Shown: positions 90-20,074 of the stretch, piece after piece
Layout: each line of letters begins with the position of its first letter
How positions within the stretch are numbered: the first letter of the stretch is position 1
Source: a virus
Strand: one strand, 5' to 3'
Length of the DNA stretch: 20,074 nucleotides
Virus record (IMG/VR): IMGVR_UViG_3300030419_000575
Location: 1-20,074 of that record
Position numbers and translations under genes: made by a program
Notes under the pieces: generated by a model
The model's input: the letters and a program-made list of their open reading frames with translations, nothing else
The model's database searches: none
Told to the model about the DNA's origin: nothing

Positions 90-386
90 TTATTTTGCCT
101 CTAGGGCGGTTACTTTTGTTTCAAGGGTTTCGATTTTTGCAACAGCTCCTTGTAAAGCGGCTGTTAATAGAGGGACAAGTTTAGATTGGTCTATACCTTG
201 CATTCGTTCACCATCTTTCTCTCCAGTTATAGCTTCTGGTACTGCAGGTGTGACTTCATGAGCAAAGAAACCATCAACTGTTTTAGAAGGTTCAGATTTA
301 AAGTTAAATCTATATGGTTTAAGAAGTTTTAATCTTGTTATAGCATTAGTTATTGCTACCTGATTTTCTTTTAATCTATAATCAGA
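90..386 (-). other. Peptidase S74 domain of second fibre
   Basis: This region encodes residues 396-493. It begins with the canonical SDYRLK motif, whose Ser and Lys are five residues apart as in endosialidase chaperones. It continues through GFFAHEV and ends in the heptad-like AKIETLETKVTALEAK. Self-cleavage before Ser396 is predicted from the family and not observed. Confidence 0.85.
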
Positions 387-1901: not shown

Positions 1902-4900
1902 AGATAACGTTCCGTCATCCGCAGTCCATACGTCTCCAGATGAGTAAACTGCAAATTTAGAACCAACATTATCTTGACCATAGAGGAAATAATCACTACC
2001 GTTATCAGGAGCATCGTCTGAGAAAAAAATTAAAATTCCATTCGGATCGCTATTATTAGAATGTTCAACAGTTAAAGCAGAGACATTACCATTATTACTC
2101 TGTAAGACATGACGATCAAGAGTTGTAAAATCTGAATCAGTCCTTAACCCATGAGCATGTAAAAATCCTGTAACTTTTGCTCCATCGTCATCTGTCTCAA
2201 ACTTCAAGCCATCATTATATTTAAGTCCTACAGCACCGCCTTCAATAGCATACATCAAGGTGTCAGTACCTGCTGCATTTTGTACAGTAAATTGATTAGA
2301 TCTAAGTCTTAATTCACCTGTACCTGAATCTTCTATATAACTGTGGTCTCCATCGTGGTAGATCTGTAGATCATTGCCAGTACCTACATATAATATAGCG
2401 TCATCAACTAGTTTTGCATTCCCTAGTATATCAAGTCGAGTATTAGCTTGACATGAAATAACTCCATCGGACGCCATGCGCATCACTTCTTTTGCTGTAT
2501 TACTAGATTCTAATTGAAAAGTTATATCATTTGAACCTGCTCCCTTCCTGACTGATGCAATTTGTGCAGTAGCAGCAGAAGTATCACCAGCAGTTAAACG
2601 TAATGCTGCATATGTATCAGTTGTATCTGATAAGTTCTGGACTTGATAACCGCACTGTGTTGTATCTGTAGCACTATAAGTATTAGTAGCGGTAAATTTC
2701 TGTGTAGCAATTTTACCTGTTATTTCTATACCATCATCAGTAGTTTCAAGCGTCTTATCACCATCGTAATAGAGTTCTACGGCATCATCAGGTTTAATGA
2801 TAATTCCGTGATCAGTGCCGAAAACAGGTTGTAGTTGAATTTGACCATTAGTAGCTCCTATATATGTATTATGTCCAGTAGTAGCCCCAACAATGTAGTT
2901 ATTAGAACCATTATGGTATATCTCTAAATCATTACCTGTTCCTAGCCTTAATTTACCTGTATCATTTGGTATATTTACATTACCACTTGAATCTATATTA
3001 AGTCTCTCAGTATTATTATAACCATTAAACTGTAACTTCTCACCAGCAGTTCCGTTGTGATAGATTATATTACCTCTTACTGCATCTGCACCATCTCCAA
3101 ACTTTATTTCACATGTGCCATTATTAGCAGATTGTAATGCTAAAGTAGGGTTAGCTGATGTATTGATTATACTAACAGTAGCATCAGATGTAATACCATT
3201 AGTTACATCAAGAGAACCGGCAATATCTATATTATTTGCTAGTTTAGTTCCATCTACAGCATCGTTAGCTATATGAACTGTGTCTATACTTCCGTCTGTA
3301 TAGTGCTCAGAGTCTATAGCATTATCTGCAATCTTCGTACCGTCTACAGCATCTGTAGCAAGCTTAGCAGTTTCAACAGCACCAGATTGTATCTTAGCTG
3401 CACTTACTGTATTATCACTAGGTGTACCAATTGAAACAGTGTCACCTAAGACAACTACAAAATAATCAGATCCAGTAGCTGGTGCGTTAGATAATTTAAG
3501 TGTATTATTACTTATAGCAAAACCTTCACTAGGTGTACTTTCACCAGCATTAGGTTTTTGTATAACACCGTTGATACTGACAATAGTTGACTGAGCATCT
3601 GTGGCTGAAGTAGACATTGTAAAGTCTGTCCTAGACCCATCAAATGCTTCAGTTAATGTTACTATATATGAAGAAGATGAACTCGCTACATCGTCCCATT
3701 CAGAAGTAGTAGCATTATAAACCTTCATTTTGTTGGCAGTTGTATCATAATACAAATCACCAGCATCATTACTAGATCCGGGTGCAGATGAAGCTACACG
3801 ATATCTAGCATTAAAGTCGTTAATATCATCAGATAATTTTTTTATATCATCTTCTTTACCTAATATCTTATGATAGTTATATGTCTGACTTGATCCTGTA
3901 GAGCTAACCATCATACCTACACCAGCAACTAAAGTCTCACTGTAAAGACTAGAAGGTGCTCCGTTAATGGTTACAGTAGAGCCTCCTACAGTTCTACCTG
4001 TAGTACTGACTCCAGATCCATTAAATACTACACCACCTGCATCAGATATAGATATAACTACTCCAGCAACTGGTTGTGTATTAGGGAATAAAACTTCTGT
4101 AGCTATAACTTCAAATCCACCAAATGGTAGTAGTTGTGCTTCTACATAATCAACAACAGCTCCTGAAGTTGGATAATGAACATCACTATCTGTTATGGTA
4201 GCTTGTTTAGTCATACCATCACAAATACCATTGATTTCAGTATTTGTAGCAGCTAAGGCTGTGCTATCTGCAAGTATTGAAGCAGTAGCCCCTTGCATAC
4301 CAGCAAGTACTTTTAATTCAGCATCGGCTATCTTTGCAGTTGTGACTGCATCAGCAGCTATCTTAGCTGTAGTGACTTGTAAATCAGCTATATGAGCTGT
4401 ATCTATACAACCAGCAGTGAAGTGTTCAGAATTAATACAAGTATCATTTAACTTAGTACTATCTATAGCATCGTTAGCTATCTTACCTCTAGTGACTTGT
4501 AAATCACCTATATGATCTGTATCTATTGAGCCATCGACATAATGCTCAGAATTTATAGCATTATCTTCAATTTTAGTTCCATCTATAGCATCGTTAGCTA
4601 TTTCAGCTTTTGCAATAGTACCATTACTTGCAGCAGTTATTCTACCTTGTGCATCTACAGTAAGATCAGTTGCAGTATAAGAACCAGCTGTTACGGATGT
4701 ATTTGCTAATTTAGCTGCTGTAACCTGATCATCAGCTATATGAGCTGTATCAATACAACCAGCAGTGAAATGCTCAGAGTTAATACAAGTATCATTTAAC
4801 TTAGTACTATCTATGATATCTGCTGCTAAGTGTACTCTATCAATAGATCCATCTGCATAGTGTTCAGAATTAATAGTGTTGTCAGCTATTTCAGCCCCTG

Positions 4901-5594
4901 TTACAGCATCAGCTCCAATTTTAGCATTTGTTACAGCATCATCAGCTATCTTAGCTGTAGTAACAGCACTAGTTGCTAGTTTAGCTGTAGTAACTTGTGA
5001 ATCAGCTATATGAGAAGTATCAATACTACCATCTGCTAATTCAGATGAATCAACACAATTTTCAGATAATTCAGTTGCTGTGATTTGATCTGCTAAGCCA
5101 GTTACTACTACATTACCTGTATGATTAGGTAATGTGATAGTTCGATCAGCTGTAGGATCAGCAGCCTCTAATCTAGTTTCATAACTATCATCTGTCGTTC
5201 CTTCAAATGAGACTCCAAAGCCTCCTCCACAAAGCATGTCACCTTGCATAGCTGTATCGCCCAAGGTGCTCATAGCATTGTTATCAACCTCTTGAGCTAC
5301 GTAGAGGATTTGGTCAAAGTTATTATTTAAGTCTTCTGCTTTAATAGCTGAACCAGCATAGAATGTACTTTGTTTATTATCATTACGAGTGTTTCTATAG
5401 ATAATAATTTTATCATTAACTGCTGGTGCAACAGTCATCTGTATTGTCGTAGCATTGGCAAATGAATATGCGGTTATAGCTTGTGTGACACTATTCAATT
5501 TGACTTGAACATCTGTCTTATCTAAATATGGAAATGTAAATGCGAATTGGGTTGTTGACCCATCCCCTGTGTATGTATTTTGTGTGACTGCCAT
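1575..5594 (-). CDS. 17: Tail fibre protein, T7 gp17-like N-terminus with S74 chaperone
   Basis: This is a 1,339-residue main tail fibre; T7 gp17 has 553 residues. Residues 1-110 resemble the T7 tail-fibre N-terminal domain that anchors the fibre to the tail (MAVTQNTYTGDGSTTQFAF, then IIYRNT and AIKAEDLNNNFDQ). Residues 171-300 and 329-424 are decapeptide repeats, separated by a linker containing LTVDAQGRITAASNG. Mid-fibre motifs follow, including GDLYYDTTANKMKVYN, two GTGNDLxIYHxG units and paired ETTDDG-type cassettes. The C-terminal 108 residues are a peptidase S74 chaperone: SDETLKEN with Ser1232 and Lys1237, then GFIAQEV at 1275-1281, then a coiled-coil tail. Cleavage would leave about 1,231 residues. 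The usual Arg of SDxRxK is Thr here. The gene lies 30 bases after the gp16 gene with no clear Shine-Dalgarno, in the gene-17 position of T7. Confidence 0.93.
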   Translation of the reverse strand: MAVTQNTYTGDGSTTQFAFTFPYLDKTDVQVKLNSVTQAITAYSFANATTIQMTVAPAVNDKIIIYRNTRNDNKQSTFYAGSAIKAEDLNNNFDQILYVAQEVDNNAMSTLGDTAMQGDMLCGGGFGVSFEGTTDDSYETRLEAADPTADRTITLPNHTGNVVVTGLADQITATELSENCVDSSELADGSIDTSHIADSQVTTAKLATSAVTTAKIADDAVTNAKIGADAVTGAEIADNTINSEHYADGSIDRVHLAADIIDSTKLNDTCINSEHFTAGCIDTAHIADDQVTAAKLANTSVTAGSYTATDLTVDAQGRITAASNGTIAKAEIANDAIDGTKIEDNAINSEHYVDGSIDTDHIGDLQVTRGKIANDAIDSTKLNDTCINSEHFTAGCIDTAHIADLQVTTAKIAADAVTTAKIADAELKVLAGMQGATASILADSTALAATNTEINGICDGMTKQATITDSDVHYPTSGAVVDYVEAQLLPFGGFEVIATEVLFPNTQPVAGVVISISDAGGVVFNGSGVSTTGRTVGGSTVTINGAPSSLYSETLVAGVGMMVSSTGSSQTYNYHKILGKEDDIKKLSDDINDFNARYRVASSAPGSSNDAGDLYYDTTANKMKVYNATTSEWDDVASSSSSYIVTLTEAFDGSRTDFTMSTSATDAQSTIVSINGVIQKPNAGESTPSEGFAISNNTLKLSNAPATGSDYFVVVLGDTVSIGTPSDNTVSAAKIQSGAVETAKLATDAVDGTKIADNAIDSEHYTDGSIDTVHIANDAVDGTKLANNIDIAGSLDVTNGITSDATVSIINTSANPTLALQSANNGTCEIKFGDGADAVRGNIIYHNGTAGEKLQFNGYNNTERLNIDSSGNVNIPNDTGKLRLGTGNDLEIYHNGSNNYIVGATTGHNTYIGATNGQIQLQPVFGTDHGIIIKPDDAVELYYDGDKTLETTDDGIEITGKIATQKFTATNTYSATDTTQCGYQVQNLSDTTDTYAALRLTAGDTSAATAQIASVRKGAGSNDITFQLESSNTAKEVMRMASDGVISCQANTRLDILGNAKLVDDAILYVGTGNDLQIYHDGDHSYIEDSGTGELRLRSNQFTVQNAAGTDTLMYAIEGGAVGLKYNDGLKFETDDDGAKVTGFLHAHGLRTDSDFTTLDRHVLQSNNGNVSALTVEHSNNSDPNGILIFFSDDAPDNGSDYFLYGQDNVGSKFAVYSSGDVWTADDGTLSSDETLKENIVDATSKLEDIKKLKVRNFNWKSSYHPEQYKYKKLGFIAQEVEEVFPSLITEHNIAKEGDTPVMKKGIKQAWDPIIIKALQEAIAKIETLETKVAALEAA
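1583..1587 (-). promoter_or_regulatory. Shine-Dalgarno of second fibre gene
   Basis: GGAGG on the minus strand lies 11 bases before the ATG at 1571. It sits inside the last codons of the upstream fibre gene. It is one of only a few canonical ribosome binding sites in this window. Confidence 0.7.
3232..3416 (-). repeat. Third decapeptide repeat block of first fibre
   Basis: Translated units include AVETAKLATD, AVDGTKIADN, AIDSEHYTDG and SIDTVHIAND. They match the two upstream blocks after an interruption of roughly 300 residues. Boundaries are approximate. Confidence 0.75.
4323..4610 (-). repeat. Second decapeptide repeat block of first fibre
   Basis: Residues about 329-424 contain roughly nine ten-residue units of the type AIDSTKLNDT and CIDTAHIADL. 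The DNA period is about 30 bp. The block contains one copy of the 84-bp near-identical repeat. Confidence 0.85.
4383..4466 (-). repeat. 84-bp direct repeat, copy A
   Basis: This 84-base segment matches 4731-4814 at 80 of 84 positions by eye. It is offset by 348 bases, an exact multiple of three. Both copies encode the same peptide, which includes TCINSEHFTAGCIDTAHIAD. Confidence 0.9.
4695..5084 (-). repeat. First decapeptide repeat block of first fibre
   Basis: Residues 171-300 divide into 13 ten-residue units in constant register (for example IDTSHIADSQ, VTTAKLATSA, VTNAKIGADA, INSEHFTAGC). The regular hydrophobic positions suggest a stacked beta structure along the fibre shaft; that fold is inference. 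Confidence 0.88.
4731..4814 (-). repeat. 84-bp direct repeat, copy B
   Basis: This is the partner of 4383-4466. The four differences I count fall at synonymous positions (ATA/ATT, CAC/CAT, GAA/GAG, AAT/AAC). Confidence 0.9.
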
Positions 5595-9668: not shown

Positions 9669-12490
9669 TATTGGTTAGCCCCCAGTTTTGTTTTTAACAC
9701 AGTTTCAATTTCTGGTGTGAATTTAAAAGGATACCATCCCTTTTTAGCGAGTTCTTCTTGATATACTGTATAAGCTAATTCACTAAATGGAGATACTTTA
9801 GAAGCTGTTGTTGAGATATTATGCCCCACACCAGGTATTGCAACGTTATTTGCGAAAAATGTACCAGAAGCATCATATTGTTTTAATTCTTGGGCACGGC
9901 GTTGAACGTGTTCATCAAATAAAGTATCAGATGTAAAATACCCTTGATCAGTAAATCTAATTAAATCTTCAACTGGTAGTTGCCAAGCTCCAACAGTTAA
10001 TACTGTACCAGCTCTAAATCGATCAGATACTTCTTGAACAGTATGTTGAGTGAGAGGTATTTCAAAAGTATCCTCACCAAATTGAACTCCTTCACCTTTA
10101 GTATTGTTACCGCCACTTTGAAAAGCGTCATAAGGATCTCTATTTTGTTGTTTAGCAACAAAGTTACTTTCTTTATCTTGTGTTATATTTGTAGAAACTT
10201 TTGATCCTTCATTACCAGTTAGCTTATCTGTTTGTTCTATAGCTCTAGTTGTACGAGCCCATGATGGCATACTTTCAGTTAGTTTTCGATATAAAGGATC
10301 TACATAACTAACGACTTTAGCTGCACCTGGACGTTGTATTAAGTCTTTTTCACCATAACCATTAGCAGCTAATATATTATTAGCTAAATCATAACGATCA
10401 ATTTTTAAATCATGAGCTGTTCGATCAATCCAAAGAGGTAATGGTGATCCAGATTTATGCCCATGAATTAATTTTAAATTAGTTTCATCAACAAAACCTT
10501 TTGTATATAATTGCTTAACTCCCCCTTTTGCTTTATCGTTAGCTGCTTCACGGTATGCAACACCTTCAGCATTATACTTCCAACCTTTATCTAAATATCT
10601 AAAACCTCTACCAGGTCCAGCCATAATAGGAGTACCGTTAGTATGCCTATTAACATCCCAAATACCGGATTGAGATTTAATTTCTTGACTTAATCGTAGA
10701 CTTTCATTTTCTAAAATCTTACCAACATCTGTACCACCAGCTGTAATGATAGCTTTTTTAACACGGAATTTCAGGATCTCTTCCGCTTTATCTTGCATCC
10801 GTTTGGTATCACCTCTAACACCTTGATCAGTTGTAGGTAGTACTGAGTTAACTGATCCTAATACATCAGCTCTTACGGCAGCTATTTGATTATCTAACTT
10901 ATCTTTATATCCAGATTTTTGATTTTCTGGATTGTCAATAACTTGTGGATAATATTCAGTAACCAATGCTTGACTATAATGGCCGCTAAATAATTCTTGC
11001 ATTGTTAAGCCGTTTTCAGACATAAGCTCCTCTTCTAGGACACCTTTACCTGCATTGTATTCTAACTCCTGCCTGCTTTCTAGATTCTTCAGCCATTCAG
11101 GTGTTTCTCTATCTGGGAAATATGCCTTATAGGTATCCTTCCACTCTTGAATGGTACGTTTATCAGGAGCTACTTTGTGTTCAAGTGCGATACTGCTATA
11201 TGATGCTTGTACACGTTGATTAAATACAGTATATTCTTCTTCTCTTCTTTCTTCAATTAACTCTGCTCTTTCATTTAAAGCAGTTGTAACAGCTTGTGTG
11301 TCCTTAGAATACTGTTCTCCCCAAAGAACTTTTTTACCACCAACTTCTATTTCTGTATTGTAAATTTTCCACCAAACTTCTGGTTTTAATTCACCAGACT
11401 TAGCCATACTTGTTAGAATACGTATACCTTTTCTTCTGGCATCACCCATATATTCTGGTTTACCACCAGCGAAAGCACGTACAGTATCTAGAAAATTCTG
11501 ACCAGGACTATCTCCTCCAAATTTAAATAAAGCAGATTTTACAAGAGTTACATCTTTTTTATTTTGTAATGTAACTAGTGTTCCTCTATCTCTTTCAGCT
11601 TGTTTTGATTCTAGCTCTTTCCTGAGTTTATTCATCCCAGGTCTCATATGAGCAGTTAGAGCTTCAACTTTATACCCATTACCTGGATTACCTATTCCAG
11701 TAAATTTACTTATATATTGTGTTTCCCAAAATCTAAGAGCTACTTGATATTCCTTCATCCCTAATTTACTATCATCTCCTTCAATATCAGCTAAGGATCT
11801 ATTAAGGGTAGGGATTTTTACATGTAACTTTTCAGTCAAATAATTCTTCCAAGCATCTCCACCGGCACGAGACAAAGAGTATTCCATAGCTCCTTGCATC
11901 TCACGGCCACTGAGATCCATAACATACTTAATTTCTTGAGGGGTAGCACCCATCAATTCCATACGTTTTTGTACAGCAGTGAATGCAGTATCAACCCATA
12001 AATTATTCTTATCTCCATTCTTAAAAGCGAGTAGCTCTTCGGGAGTTAAATTATATCTAGAAGCTATTTCATAACCTTTAGCTACAATTTCAGGTGTACG
12101 TTCGGTTTCAAATTTAAGATAAGTATTAAGTGCTGTTACAGAGAGTTCTTTAACTTTATCCCATTTCTCTCTATCTCTCTCCATTTCTTGACGTTCAACT
12201 TCAAGATCTTGCATCTCAACCCTATGCTTCTGCTTAGCAGCTTGCCTAAAAGCTTGAGCATAAGTATTACTTAAACTAAGATCGTGAGCTCTGAACCTTG
12301 CTTGAGTTTGTTGTTGTTCTTTTCTAGTTCTAAGAACAGCATCCCTAGATTCTTTATGAGCATTCGCAACATCCTGCATACCTGCAAGTTGAATCTTCAT
12401 CTCCTCAAGAATCTTATGTGAGGTGTCAGGTACTTGGATAGGTTCGAATGAAGCACCTCCCATCTGACGCCTATATTGTCGTTTTTGCAT
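9668..12490 (-). CDS. 15: Internal core protein, gp15-like
   Basis: This 940-residue protein (T7 gp15 has 747) is assigned mainly from its place between gp14-like and gp16-like genes. It would form part of the internal core and, after ejection, of the trans-periplasmic conduit. The N-terminus is basic (MQKRQYRRQMGG). Residues about 40-125 are strongly coiled-coil (for example EMQDLEVERQEMERDREKWD). The rest looks soluble and mixed helical, with no hydrophobic membrane stretch. The start lies 28 bases after the gp14 stop in an AT-rich gap without a Shine-Dalgarno. Its stop overlaps the gp16 start. I recognise no enzymatic motif. Confidence 0.8.
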   Translation of the reverse strand: MQKRQYRRQMGGASFEPIQVPDTSHKILEEMKIQLAGMQDVANAHKESRDAVLRTRKEQQQTQARFRAHDLSLSNTYAQAFRQAAKQKHRVEMQDLEVERQEMERDREKWDKVKELSVTALNTYLKFETERTPEIVAKGYEIASRYNLTPEELLAFKNGDKNNLWVDTAFTAVQKRMELMGATPQEIKYVMDLSGREMQGAMEYSLSRAGGDAWKNYLTEKLHVKIPTLNRSLADIEGDDSKLGMKEYQVALRFWETQYISKFTGIGNPGNGYKVEALTAHMRPGMNKLRKELESKQAERDRGTLVTLQNKKDVTLVKSALFKFGGDSPGQNFLDTVRAFAGGKPEYMGDARRKGIRILTSMAKSGELKPEVWWKIYNTEIEVGGKKVLWGEQYSKDTQAVTTALNERAELIEERREEEYTVFNQRVQASYSSIALEHKVAPDKRTIQEWKDTYKAYFPDRETPEWLKNLESRQELEYNAGKGVLEEELMSENGLTMQELFSGHYSQALVTEYYPQVIDNPENQKSGYKDKLDNQIAAVRADVLGSVNSVLPTTDQGVRGDTKRMQDKAEEILKFRVKKAIITAGGTDVGKILENESLRLSQEIKSQSGIWDVNRHTNGTPIMAGPGRGFRYLDKGWKYNAEGVAYREAANDKAKGGVKQLYTKGFVDETNLKLIHGHKSGSPLPLWIDRTAHDLKIDRYDLANNILAANGYGEKDLIQRPGAAKVVSYVDPLYRKLTESMPSWARTTRAIEQTDKLTGNEGSKVSTNITQDKESNFVAKQQNRDPYDAFQSGGNNTKGEGVQFGEDTFEIPLTQHTVQEVSDRFRAGTVLTVGAWQLPVEDLIRFTDQGYFTSDTLFDEHVQRRAQELKQYDASGTFFANNVAIPGVGHNISTTASKVSPFSELAYTVYQEELAKKGWYPFKFTPEIETVLKTKLGANQ

Positions 12491-19405: not shown

Positions 19406-19528
19406 TTATATGGGATAAAATGTATTGTTTACTTTCTTTATACGTATAAAATTTTTCGATCGTTTTTGTGGTCTTTCCCACCGTCTAGACAGCTTGAGGG
19501 TATCCACCGTAGCGGGCCAAAAGCCAAT
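19406..19528 (-). promoter_or_regulatory. Capsid gene leader, palindrome-rich, possible promoter
   Basis: This is the non-coding stretch before the capsid ATG after the upstream hairpin. It holds a 14-base perfect palindrome TTTATACGTATAAA (19437-19450), CGATCG (19457-19462) and GTCTAGAC (19483-19490). It also holds a 7-base direct repeat CCACCGT (19479-19485 and 19504-19510). No T7-type promoter consensus and no Shine-Dalgarno is visible. A late phage promoter is expected here by analogy with T7 phi10, but none can be named from sequence alone. Confidence 0.4.
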
Positions 19529-19563
19529 GAAAGGGAGGTCCGACTCTGAGGTGCCTCCCTTCC
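19529..19563 (-). terminator. Strong hairpin before capsid gene (terminator or processing site)
   Basis: The arms AAGGGAGG and CCTCCCTT pair perfectly. One G-U and one G-C pair extend them to about ten base pairs around a 15-base loop. The hairpin begins directly after the stop codon of the 45-residue gene. The following sequence has only a short T-run (TTTCATT), so it may be a weak terminator or an RNase processing or stability element. Confidence 0.6.
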
Positions 19564-19565
19564 TT

Positions 19566-19703
19566 TTACTCTCCTAAGAGAGCTTCCTCTAATGATTGAG
19601 GCATGTCATCTTCTTTCTCTTCTGGTTCTGGATCTTTAATATCTGGAGTCATAGGAGAAATATAAGTTACTTTAGCAGGATTACCTGCGCTTTGATGTGC
19701 CAT
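19566..19703 (-). CDS. Small acidic hypothetical protein (45 aa)
   Basis: This short frame encodes 45 residues, MAHQSAGNPAKVTYISPM at the start and a strongly acidic C-terminal half (DPEPEEKEDDMPQSLEEALL). Its ATG overlaps the stop of the upstream gene as TAATG, a junction used at three other places in this window, which is the main support for it being real. A hairpin follows directly after its stop. Its first four residues (MAHQ) match those of the capsid protein downstream. It lies where T7 has the end of its scaffold gene, so a capsid-assembly accessory role is possible but unproven. I recognise no family. Confidence 0.65.
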   Translation of the reverse strand: MAHQSAGNPAKVTYISPMTPDIKDPEPEEKEDDMPQSLEEALLGE

Positions 19704-20068
19704 TAGAAATTTAGTTTTGCGCCGACTTTGGTTGACCAAGCTTTGTCATCATCTTCGTCCTCAGCAGTTAGTACTGCGAGTTCTCCATAGACACCAAGAG
19801 CATCTGTTGCATTGACGTTGATACCAACTTTACCTGATAGGCGAGTGTCGTTATCTTCTCCATCTTCTGCAACAATAGCTGGCCCTCCCTGAGCATACCA
19901 TCCAATAGTCTCACCACCACCTTCTACACCAACGTGTAGGTCAGTGGTACGGCTGTCATAATCCGAGCCGGTATAACTGGCGTTGCTCTCTACGTTTACG
20001 TAGGCACCGGCGAAAGCAGGAGCTGTCGCTGATAGAGTGGCTGCGAGGGCTAGTGCTAATCTTTTCAT
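19703..20068 (-). CDS. Secreted outer-membrane beta-barrel-like protein
   Basis: This 121-residue protein starts with a clear signal peptide: MKR, a hydrophobic core LALALAATLSA, and an AFA cleavage site after residue 20. The mature part shows about six alternating-pattern segments (GAYVNVESNASYTG, TDLHVGVEGG, IGWYAQGGPAIV, RLSGKVGINVNA, LGVYGELAVL, WSTKVGAKLNF). Two acidic loops (EDGEDND, EDEDDD) separate some of them. It ends in phenylalanine, as outer-membrane barrel proteins usually do. It is shorter than a standard eight-stranded barrel. A cell-envelope role, such as blocking superinfection or altering the host surface, is a guess. Only six bases upstream of the ATG are in the window. 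Its stop overlaps the next start as TAATG. Confidence 0.82.
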   Translation of the reverse strand: MKRLALALAATLSATAPAFAGAYVNVESNASYTGSDYDSRTTDLHVGVEGGGETIGWYAQGGPAIVAEDGEDNDTRLSGKVGINVNATDALGVYGELAVLTAEDEDDDKAWSTKVGAKLNF

Positions 20069-20074
20069 TGTTAA

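Follow-up and report, generated by a model that had tools for sequence, protein, structure and literature searches.

The stretch of DNA analysed here (the window) is a virus record of 20,074 bases in which all of the large genes lie on the minus strand. Read in that direction, these are an outer-membrane-protein-like ORF (OMP), a small ORF and the genes for the capsid protein, tail tubular proteins A and B, large virion-type proteins and tail fibers (Table 1). The capsid protein is 73-79% identical (about 75%) to those of T7-like Synechococcus and Prochlorococcus phages, and we therefore take the virus to be a fragment of a T7-like cyanophage; no lysogeny genes were seen within the window. The start of the 45-aa ORF overlaps the OMP stop codon (TAATG), and both this ORF and the capsid protein begin with MAHQ. 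A first-pass annotation had placed the OMP gene directly upstream of the capsid gene. The two are indeed close, but the 45-aa ORF and a 100-nt structured RNA lie between them.

Table 1. Features of the OMP region, numbered along the window
Feature	Position	Strand	Basis
OMP-like gene, 121 aa (PF24653 / PHROG 417 / cyanophage gp222)	19703..20068	-	ORF call and family matches
Signal peptide, residues 1-20, AxA site, predicted cut after A20	20009..20068	-	Sequence; A18/A20 conservation; AF2 helix 2-14
Mature domain, residues 21-121, six predicted beta strands	19706..20008	-	AF2 model; fold search
Predicted strands, OMP residues 21-33, 36-51, 55-67, 74-86, 91-100 and 110-119			AF2
C-terminal BAM-type beta-signal KVGAKLNF, ending in the invariant Phe	19706..19729	-	Family alignment
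Final 6 nt of the OMP leader, TTAACA	20069..20074	-	Identical in L004 and L009
45-aa ORF, MAHQSAGNPAKV...	19566..19703	-	Many relatives have a homologue at this site
Major capsid protein, T7 gp10A-like, PF21703	18257..19405	-	Profile match and identity to isolates

Family membership and predicted fold

The OMP of the window belongs to an already known family. It matches Pfam PF24653 (Phage_OMP; in full, "Cyanophage outer membrane protein like beta barrel domain") with an E value of 1.3e-42 and 145.3 bits against a cut-off of 27, over its full length (residues 1-121 on model positions 2-122), and it matches PHROG 417, a group of unknown function, at 4e-40. A tblastn search returned 467 phage records of both T4-like and T7-like types, all from cyanophages or marine phages and nearly all from phages of Synechococcus or Prochlorococcus. 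Judged by this E value and the number of homologous records, the ORF is real, far beyond chance. We found no cellular homologue: the sole match on a genome contig was L107, assigned to a Rhodobacteraceae MAG. We rejected this candidate; its neighbors are glycosyltransferase and oxygenase genes and a PhotoRC-II RNA, which suggests a misbinned contig of a cyanomyovirus.

The same family appears elsewhere as Syn9 gp222, T4-GC 241 and P-SSM2 PSSM2_246 and PSSM2_247 (g247), and it is labeled "DUF680 domain-containing protein" in S-TIM4, S-SM2 and S-SZBM1. In a Pfam scan, the members from S-TIM4 (ORF224), Syn9, S-SM2, P-SSM2 and S-SZBM1 all matched PF24653, while the DUF680 profile matched neither the window OMP nor any of these proteins; going by the profiles, the DUF680 label on the T4-like GenBank members tested is a misannotation. 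The window OMP shares with Syn9 gp222 and P-SSM2 g247 its full length, the signal peptide, the six-strand region, the C-terminal Phe and cyanophage hosts, and it differs from the T4-like members in coming from a T7-like phage. The family is frequent in T7-like cyanophages and near-universal in marine T4-like ones (15/16; PMC3037559), yet it has no known function.

Several features read from the window in the first-pass annotation are held in common by the family. The signal peptide (MKRLALALAATLSATAPAFA, followed by G) carries an AxA cleavage site, the proposed AFA, in which A18 and A20 do not vary among 16 diverse members from podo- and myoviruses. The C terminus follows the pattern K-[VIL]-G-x-K-[YFL]-x-F, and the terminal Phe is invariant in all 75 aligned sequences. 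The proposed alternation of beta strands is not significant in the window sequence alone (p=0.18), but it holds for the family profile built from 75 aligned relatives (1.88 versus 1.29+-0.21 after shuffling; p=0.004), and AF2, run on the 75 sequences, predicts a single chain of six strands (pLDDT, 84.5; pTM, 0.68), with means over 10-residue blocks of 86-94 across the mature protein except for one block at 79. A PDB sequence search gave no significant match. When the model itself was searched against the PDB, the most probable matches were outer-membrane barrels, in agreement with the barrel first proposed: OmpX (probability 1.00), OprF and Omp32 (0.99 each), and also FapF and Ail, with a best E value of 0.14 and none below 0.1. 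Viral matches at E <0.001 were mostly named members of the PF24653 family.

Conservation within the predicted barrel is uneven. Inward-facing polar or small positions (N25, E27, N29, H45, G47, E49, Q60, S78, K80, E96, K114 and K118) are invariant or nearly so, and outward-facing hydrophobic positions exchange freely among the 75 aligned relatives, which is the pattern of a membrane barrel. The outward glycines G61, G79 and G95, on strands 3-5, are also conserved and could form a packing surface. The acidic loops noted at first pass are there too, with partial conservation (D36, D69, D72 and D108, the last three nearly invariant). With dN/dS at 0.07-0.14, the gene is under strong purifying selection. 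Signal peptide, amphipathic strands and C-terminal beta-signal are the general marks of an outer-membrane barrel, and, to go by these and by the model, we think it very probable that the protein enters the outer membrane of infected cells.

The OMP has a polar interior, short turns and a beta-signal in common with OmpX, Ail and OprF, which are among the best fold matches, but those proteins have eight strands, whereas the AF2 model has six within about 101 residues. To our knowledge, eight strands make up the smallest outer-membrane barrels, so that oligomers or an open sheet are possible forms of the predicted protein. A barrel of this size might also act as a decoy or lysis helper, engaging BamA so as to slow the assembly of host barrels or to weaken the outer membrane late in infection. 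The canonical beta-signal with its invariant Phe and the presence of only six predicted strands would suit such a role, as would the selective loss of the gene in one host (PMC6224464). However, the invariant charged residues of the interior imply a folded, functional barrel rather than a mere tail signal, and a decoy leaves the nutrient wiring described below unexplained; we consider this explanation very improbable. Lambda Lom-type proteins, to which the gene had been compared, embody the same idea of a phage-encoded outer-membrane protein. The OMP differs from them in its T7-like context, in which no lysogeny genes were seen, and in matching none of these families in Pfam.

An accessory island with a glutamine riboswitch

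In about 95 IMG/VR loci, as far as the contigs reach, portal and scaffold come first, then accessory genes (psbA among them or not), OMP, in many cases a small ORF, and finally capsid; psbA follows OMP in a minority. The isolates 9515-10a and S-RIP2 and MedDCM S45-C4 have the same island order. At this site P-SSP7 carries hli and psbA and no OMP, and AP013539 has neither psbA nor OMP annotated and no PF24653 match; its capsid is the closest to that of the window, yet the OMP gene is absent. The first-pass suggestion that the OMP occupies the position of the T7 scaffold gene (gp9) did not survive this comparison. Relatives keep portal and scaffold upstream, with a separate scaffold homologue ahead of OMP, and the gene is therefore an accessory of the island and not a scaffold replacement. 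As separate observations, seven loci have a tRNA gene in the OMP-capsid interval (L012:3986-4056, L041:1609-1679, L053:6872-6942, L063:6879-6949, L065:4801-4871, L075:1504-1574 and L080:1040-1110), and group I introns lie inside the major capsid gene of two relatives (L094:8009-8217 and L081:2366-2594).

Only 6 nt of the window lie upstream of the OMP start, and relatives serve as a guide to what may lie beyond the contig end. An Rfam search found a Glutamine-II riboswitch (RF01704), a sensor of the nitrogen signal glutamine, above the gathering score in 58 of the 77 OMP loci scanned, each time directly upstream of the OMP start; the 77 include five T4-like-type loci, all without it. The gap between riboswitch and OMP is 72-127 nt (median, 86 nt). 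Near relatives of the window with this arrangement are L002, L003, L004, L005, L006 and L009; the OMP of L002 is 98% identical to that of the window. The space between aptamer and OMP encodes a short leader peptide, marked by the motif YRGVxYTK, whose coding sequence typically stops 0-15 nt short of the OMP start codon (the peptide was taken by script as the longest ORF, which in some loci picked another frame). In L004 and L009, moving upstream from the TTAACA that they share with the window, a YRGVPYTK leader peptide comes first and the riboswitch after it.

RF01704 (Downstream-peptide) units described from cyanobacteria and marine sequences also consist of an aptamer followed by a short conserved peptide (PMC2864571); in the phages, an outer-membrane protein gene comes next, typically about 0-15 nt after the peptide. 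In cyanobacteria, this aptamer class precedes ORFs of 17-100 aa, and expression has been described as falling when nitrogen is depleted (PMC2864571); in earlier work cited in PMC6698751, a GFP fusion showed the aptamer to act as an ON switch. The literature that we surveyed, which covers the field in part, yielded no report of a link between this riboswitch and the PF24653 phage protein. The protein joins a known family; the linkage to a riboswitch and leader peptide, seen in relatives, is the new part. The association is not exclusive. P-SSP7 and AP013539 have the riboswitch without an OMP gene, and in several genomes with OMP beside psbA (L017, L021, L022, L093 and L094) it lies downstream of OMP, before another small ORF. 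Together with its absence from the scanned T4-like loci, these cases suggest that the riboswitch belongs to the island no less than to the gene. Pho boxes upstream of OMP genes showed a slight excess, but the best site in the loci inspected falls inside the leader-peptide coding sequence, and we did not count them.

Proposed role in the infected cell

In T4-like phages, some family members have phosphate genes as neighbors in place of the riboswitch found in T7-like relatives. An OMP copy of S-SM2 lies by pstS/phoA, and in the PSSM2_246-247 pair of P-SSM2, pstS starts about 10 nt after PSSM2_247; both pstS-linked copies match PF24653. Transcripts of g247 and pstS are said, in work by Lin from 2016, to be enriched under phosphorus limitation in P-SSM2. 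Each of these two phages carries two adjacent OMP copies (L024:3932-4303 and 4554-4928 for S-SM2; L110:10758-11147 and 11382-11738 for P-SSM2). The copy beside pstS is divergent in both and lacks many otherwise conserved residues, so that the family may have two subgroups.

Published data bear on the role of these proteins. At BATS, PstS and a "DUF680" cluster are over-represented together (PMC3686209). In S-TIM4, the OMP gene acquired 13 mutations, many of them inactivating, which reached about 100% frequency on nutrient-replete WH8102; the authors read it as a nutrient-response gene lost under replete conditions (PMC6224464). The phosphate neighbors, the co-enrichment with PstS and the S-TIM4 mutations together support an auxiliary, nutrient-linked envelope protein.

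Our main reading, to which we give a probability of about 0.55, is that the OMP is a small, cyanophage-specific outer-membrane beta-barrel, responsive to nitrogen, that alters envelope permeability or uptake, and that its gene is an auxiliary host-remodeling gene rather than one for a part of the virion. We reached it by comparison, drawing on the family, the signal peptide, the predicted six-strand fold, the beta-signal, purifying selection, the position in the island, and the riboswitch and leader peptide of relatives. Production of the protein would follow the cell's nitrogen state; Sec would export it and BAM would place it in the outer membrane of the cyanobacterial host, where it would change permeability or solute uptake. 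It would probably act as an oligomer, since we know of no pore-forming monomer with as few as six strands. The gene would then be a conditionally useful one. A more specific version, which we consider possible but rather unlikely, is that the six-stranded protein, smaller than known barrels, forms an oligomeric solute channel that is switched by the glutamine riboswitch in T7-like phages and by the phosphate regulon in T4-like ones. Remodeling of the host surface, as first proposed, is plausible in this light, and it fits the sweeps of loss-of-function mutations in S-TIM4 on one host (PMC6224464).

The main rival to a nutrient-linked role is the exclusion of other phages, raised at first pass, in which the barrel would mask or replace a surface receptor or block the entry site. 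The predicted outer-membrane location is compatible with this, and so is the near-universal presence of the family in marine T4-like cyanophages (PMC3037559), a group without the r genes that T4 has for superinfection and lysis inhibition (PMC2984593). Selective loss during single-phage passage would also be expected of a costly exclusion gene (PMC6224464). However, the predicted exposed loops are short and change no faster than the strands (median dN, 0.19 versus 0.21), and D69, D72 and D108 hardly vary. Moreover, wiring to a riboswitch and to pstS is unexpected for a constitutive shield; the glutamine riboswitch in T7-like phages and the pstS/phoA neighbors in some T4-like ones point to nutrient status instead. 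Exclusion is thus possible but rather unlikely, and we favor a nutrient-linked envelope protein.

Alternatively, the OMP may be a minor structural or entry protein packaged in the particle. In T7-like phages its gene has head genes around it, and one member, a PF24653 homologue by Pfam scan, was detected by LC-MS in CsCl-purified particles of S-SZBM1 (2 peptides, 1.06%; PMC9146016). This is the one piece of evidence for a virion component, which the first-pass annotation had held would speak against its own reading, and it may reflect carry-over of outer membrane. The S-TIM4 authors, on the other hand, call the protein nonstructural, their phage having lost it and kept its infectivity (PMC6224464). 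P-SSP7 and AP013539 do without the gene, and the protein itself has a cleavable signal peptide and a beta-signal. We regard a virion role as unlikely. The original view of an outer-membrane protein that is probably not a shell component is upheld by the family, the fold search, the beta-signal and the published loss-of-function mutants.

For the nutrient-linked envelope protein that we favor, the riboswitch gives a direct handle on the timing of its production in T7-like phages and connects a phage envelope protein with the nitrogen status of the host. If the OMP does change uptake, infecting viruses would be altering how permeable abundant phototrophs of the ocean are.

A structured RNA before the capsid gene

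A conserved RNA of about 100 nt, at positions 19465-19564 of the window on the minus strand, has homologues in 150 loci (for example, L004:5267-5363, L020:4951-5048, L022:3843-3938 and L023:3854-3951). In T7-like cyanophages it lies a median of 60 nt (45-138) before the start codon of the major capsid gene. The inner five pairs of its P1 hairpin are kept at 119-122 of 122 distinct sequences, with GC/AT/CG exchanges, and four pairs of P5 at 121-122 of 122, with TA/AT/GC exchanges; two-sided compensation occurs at 16 of the 24 pairs in A4. These exchanges mark a strongly covarying RNA. It had no match in Rfam 15 and is apparently undescribed so far. BLAST found it in 33 phage records, P-SSP7 among them, with one copy in each, and it is unannotated wherever annotation exists. 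It could be a leader of the capsid mRNA, a processing site or a packaging RNA.
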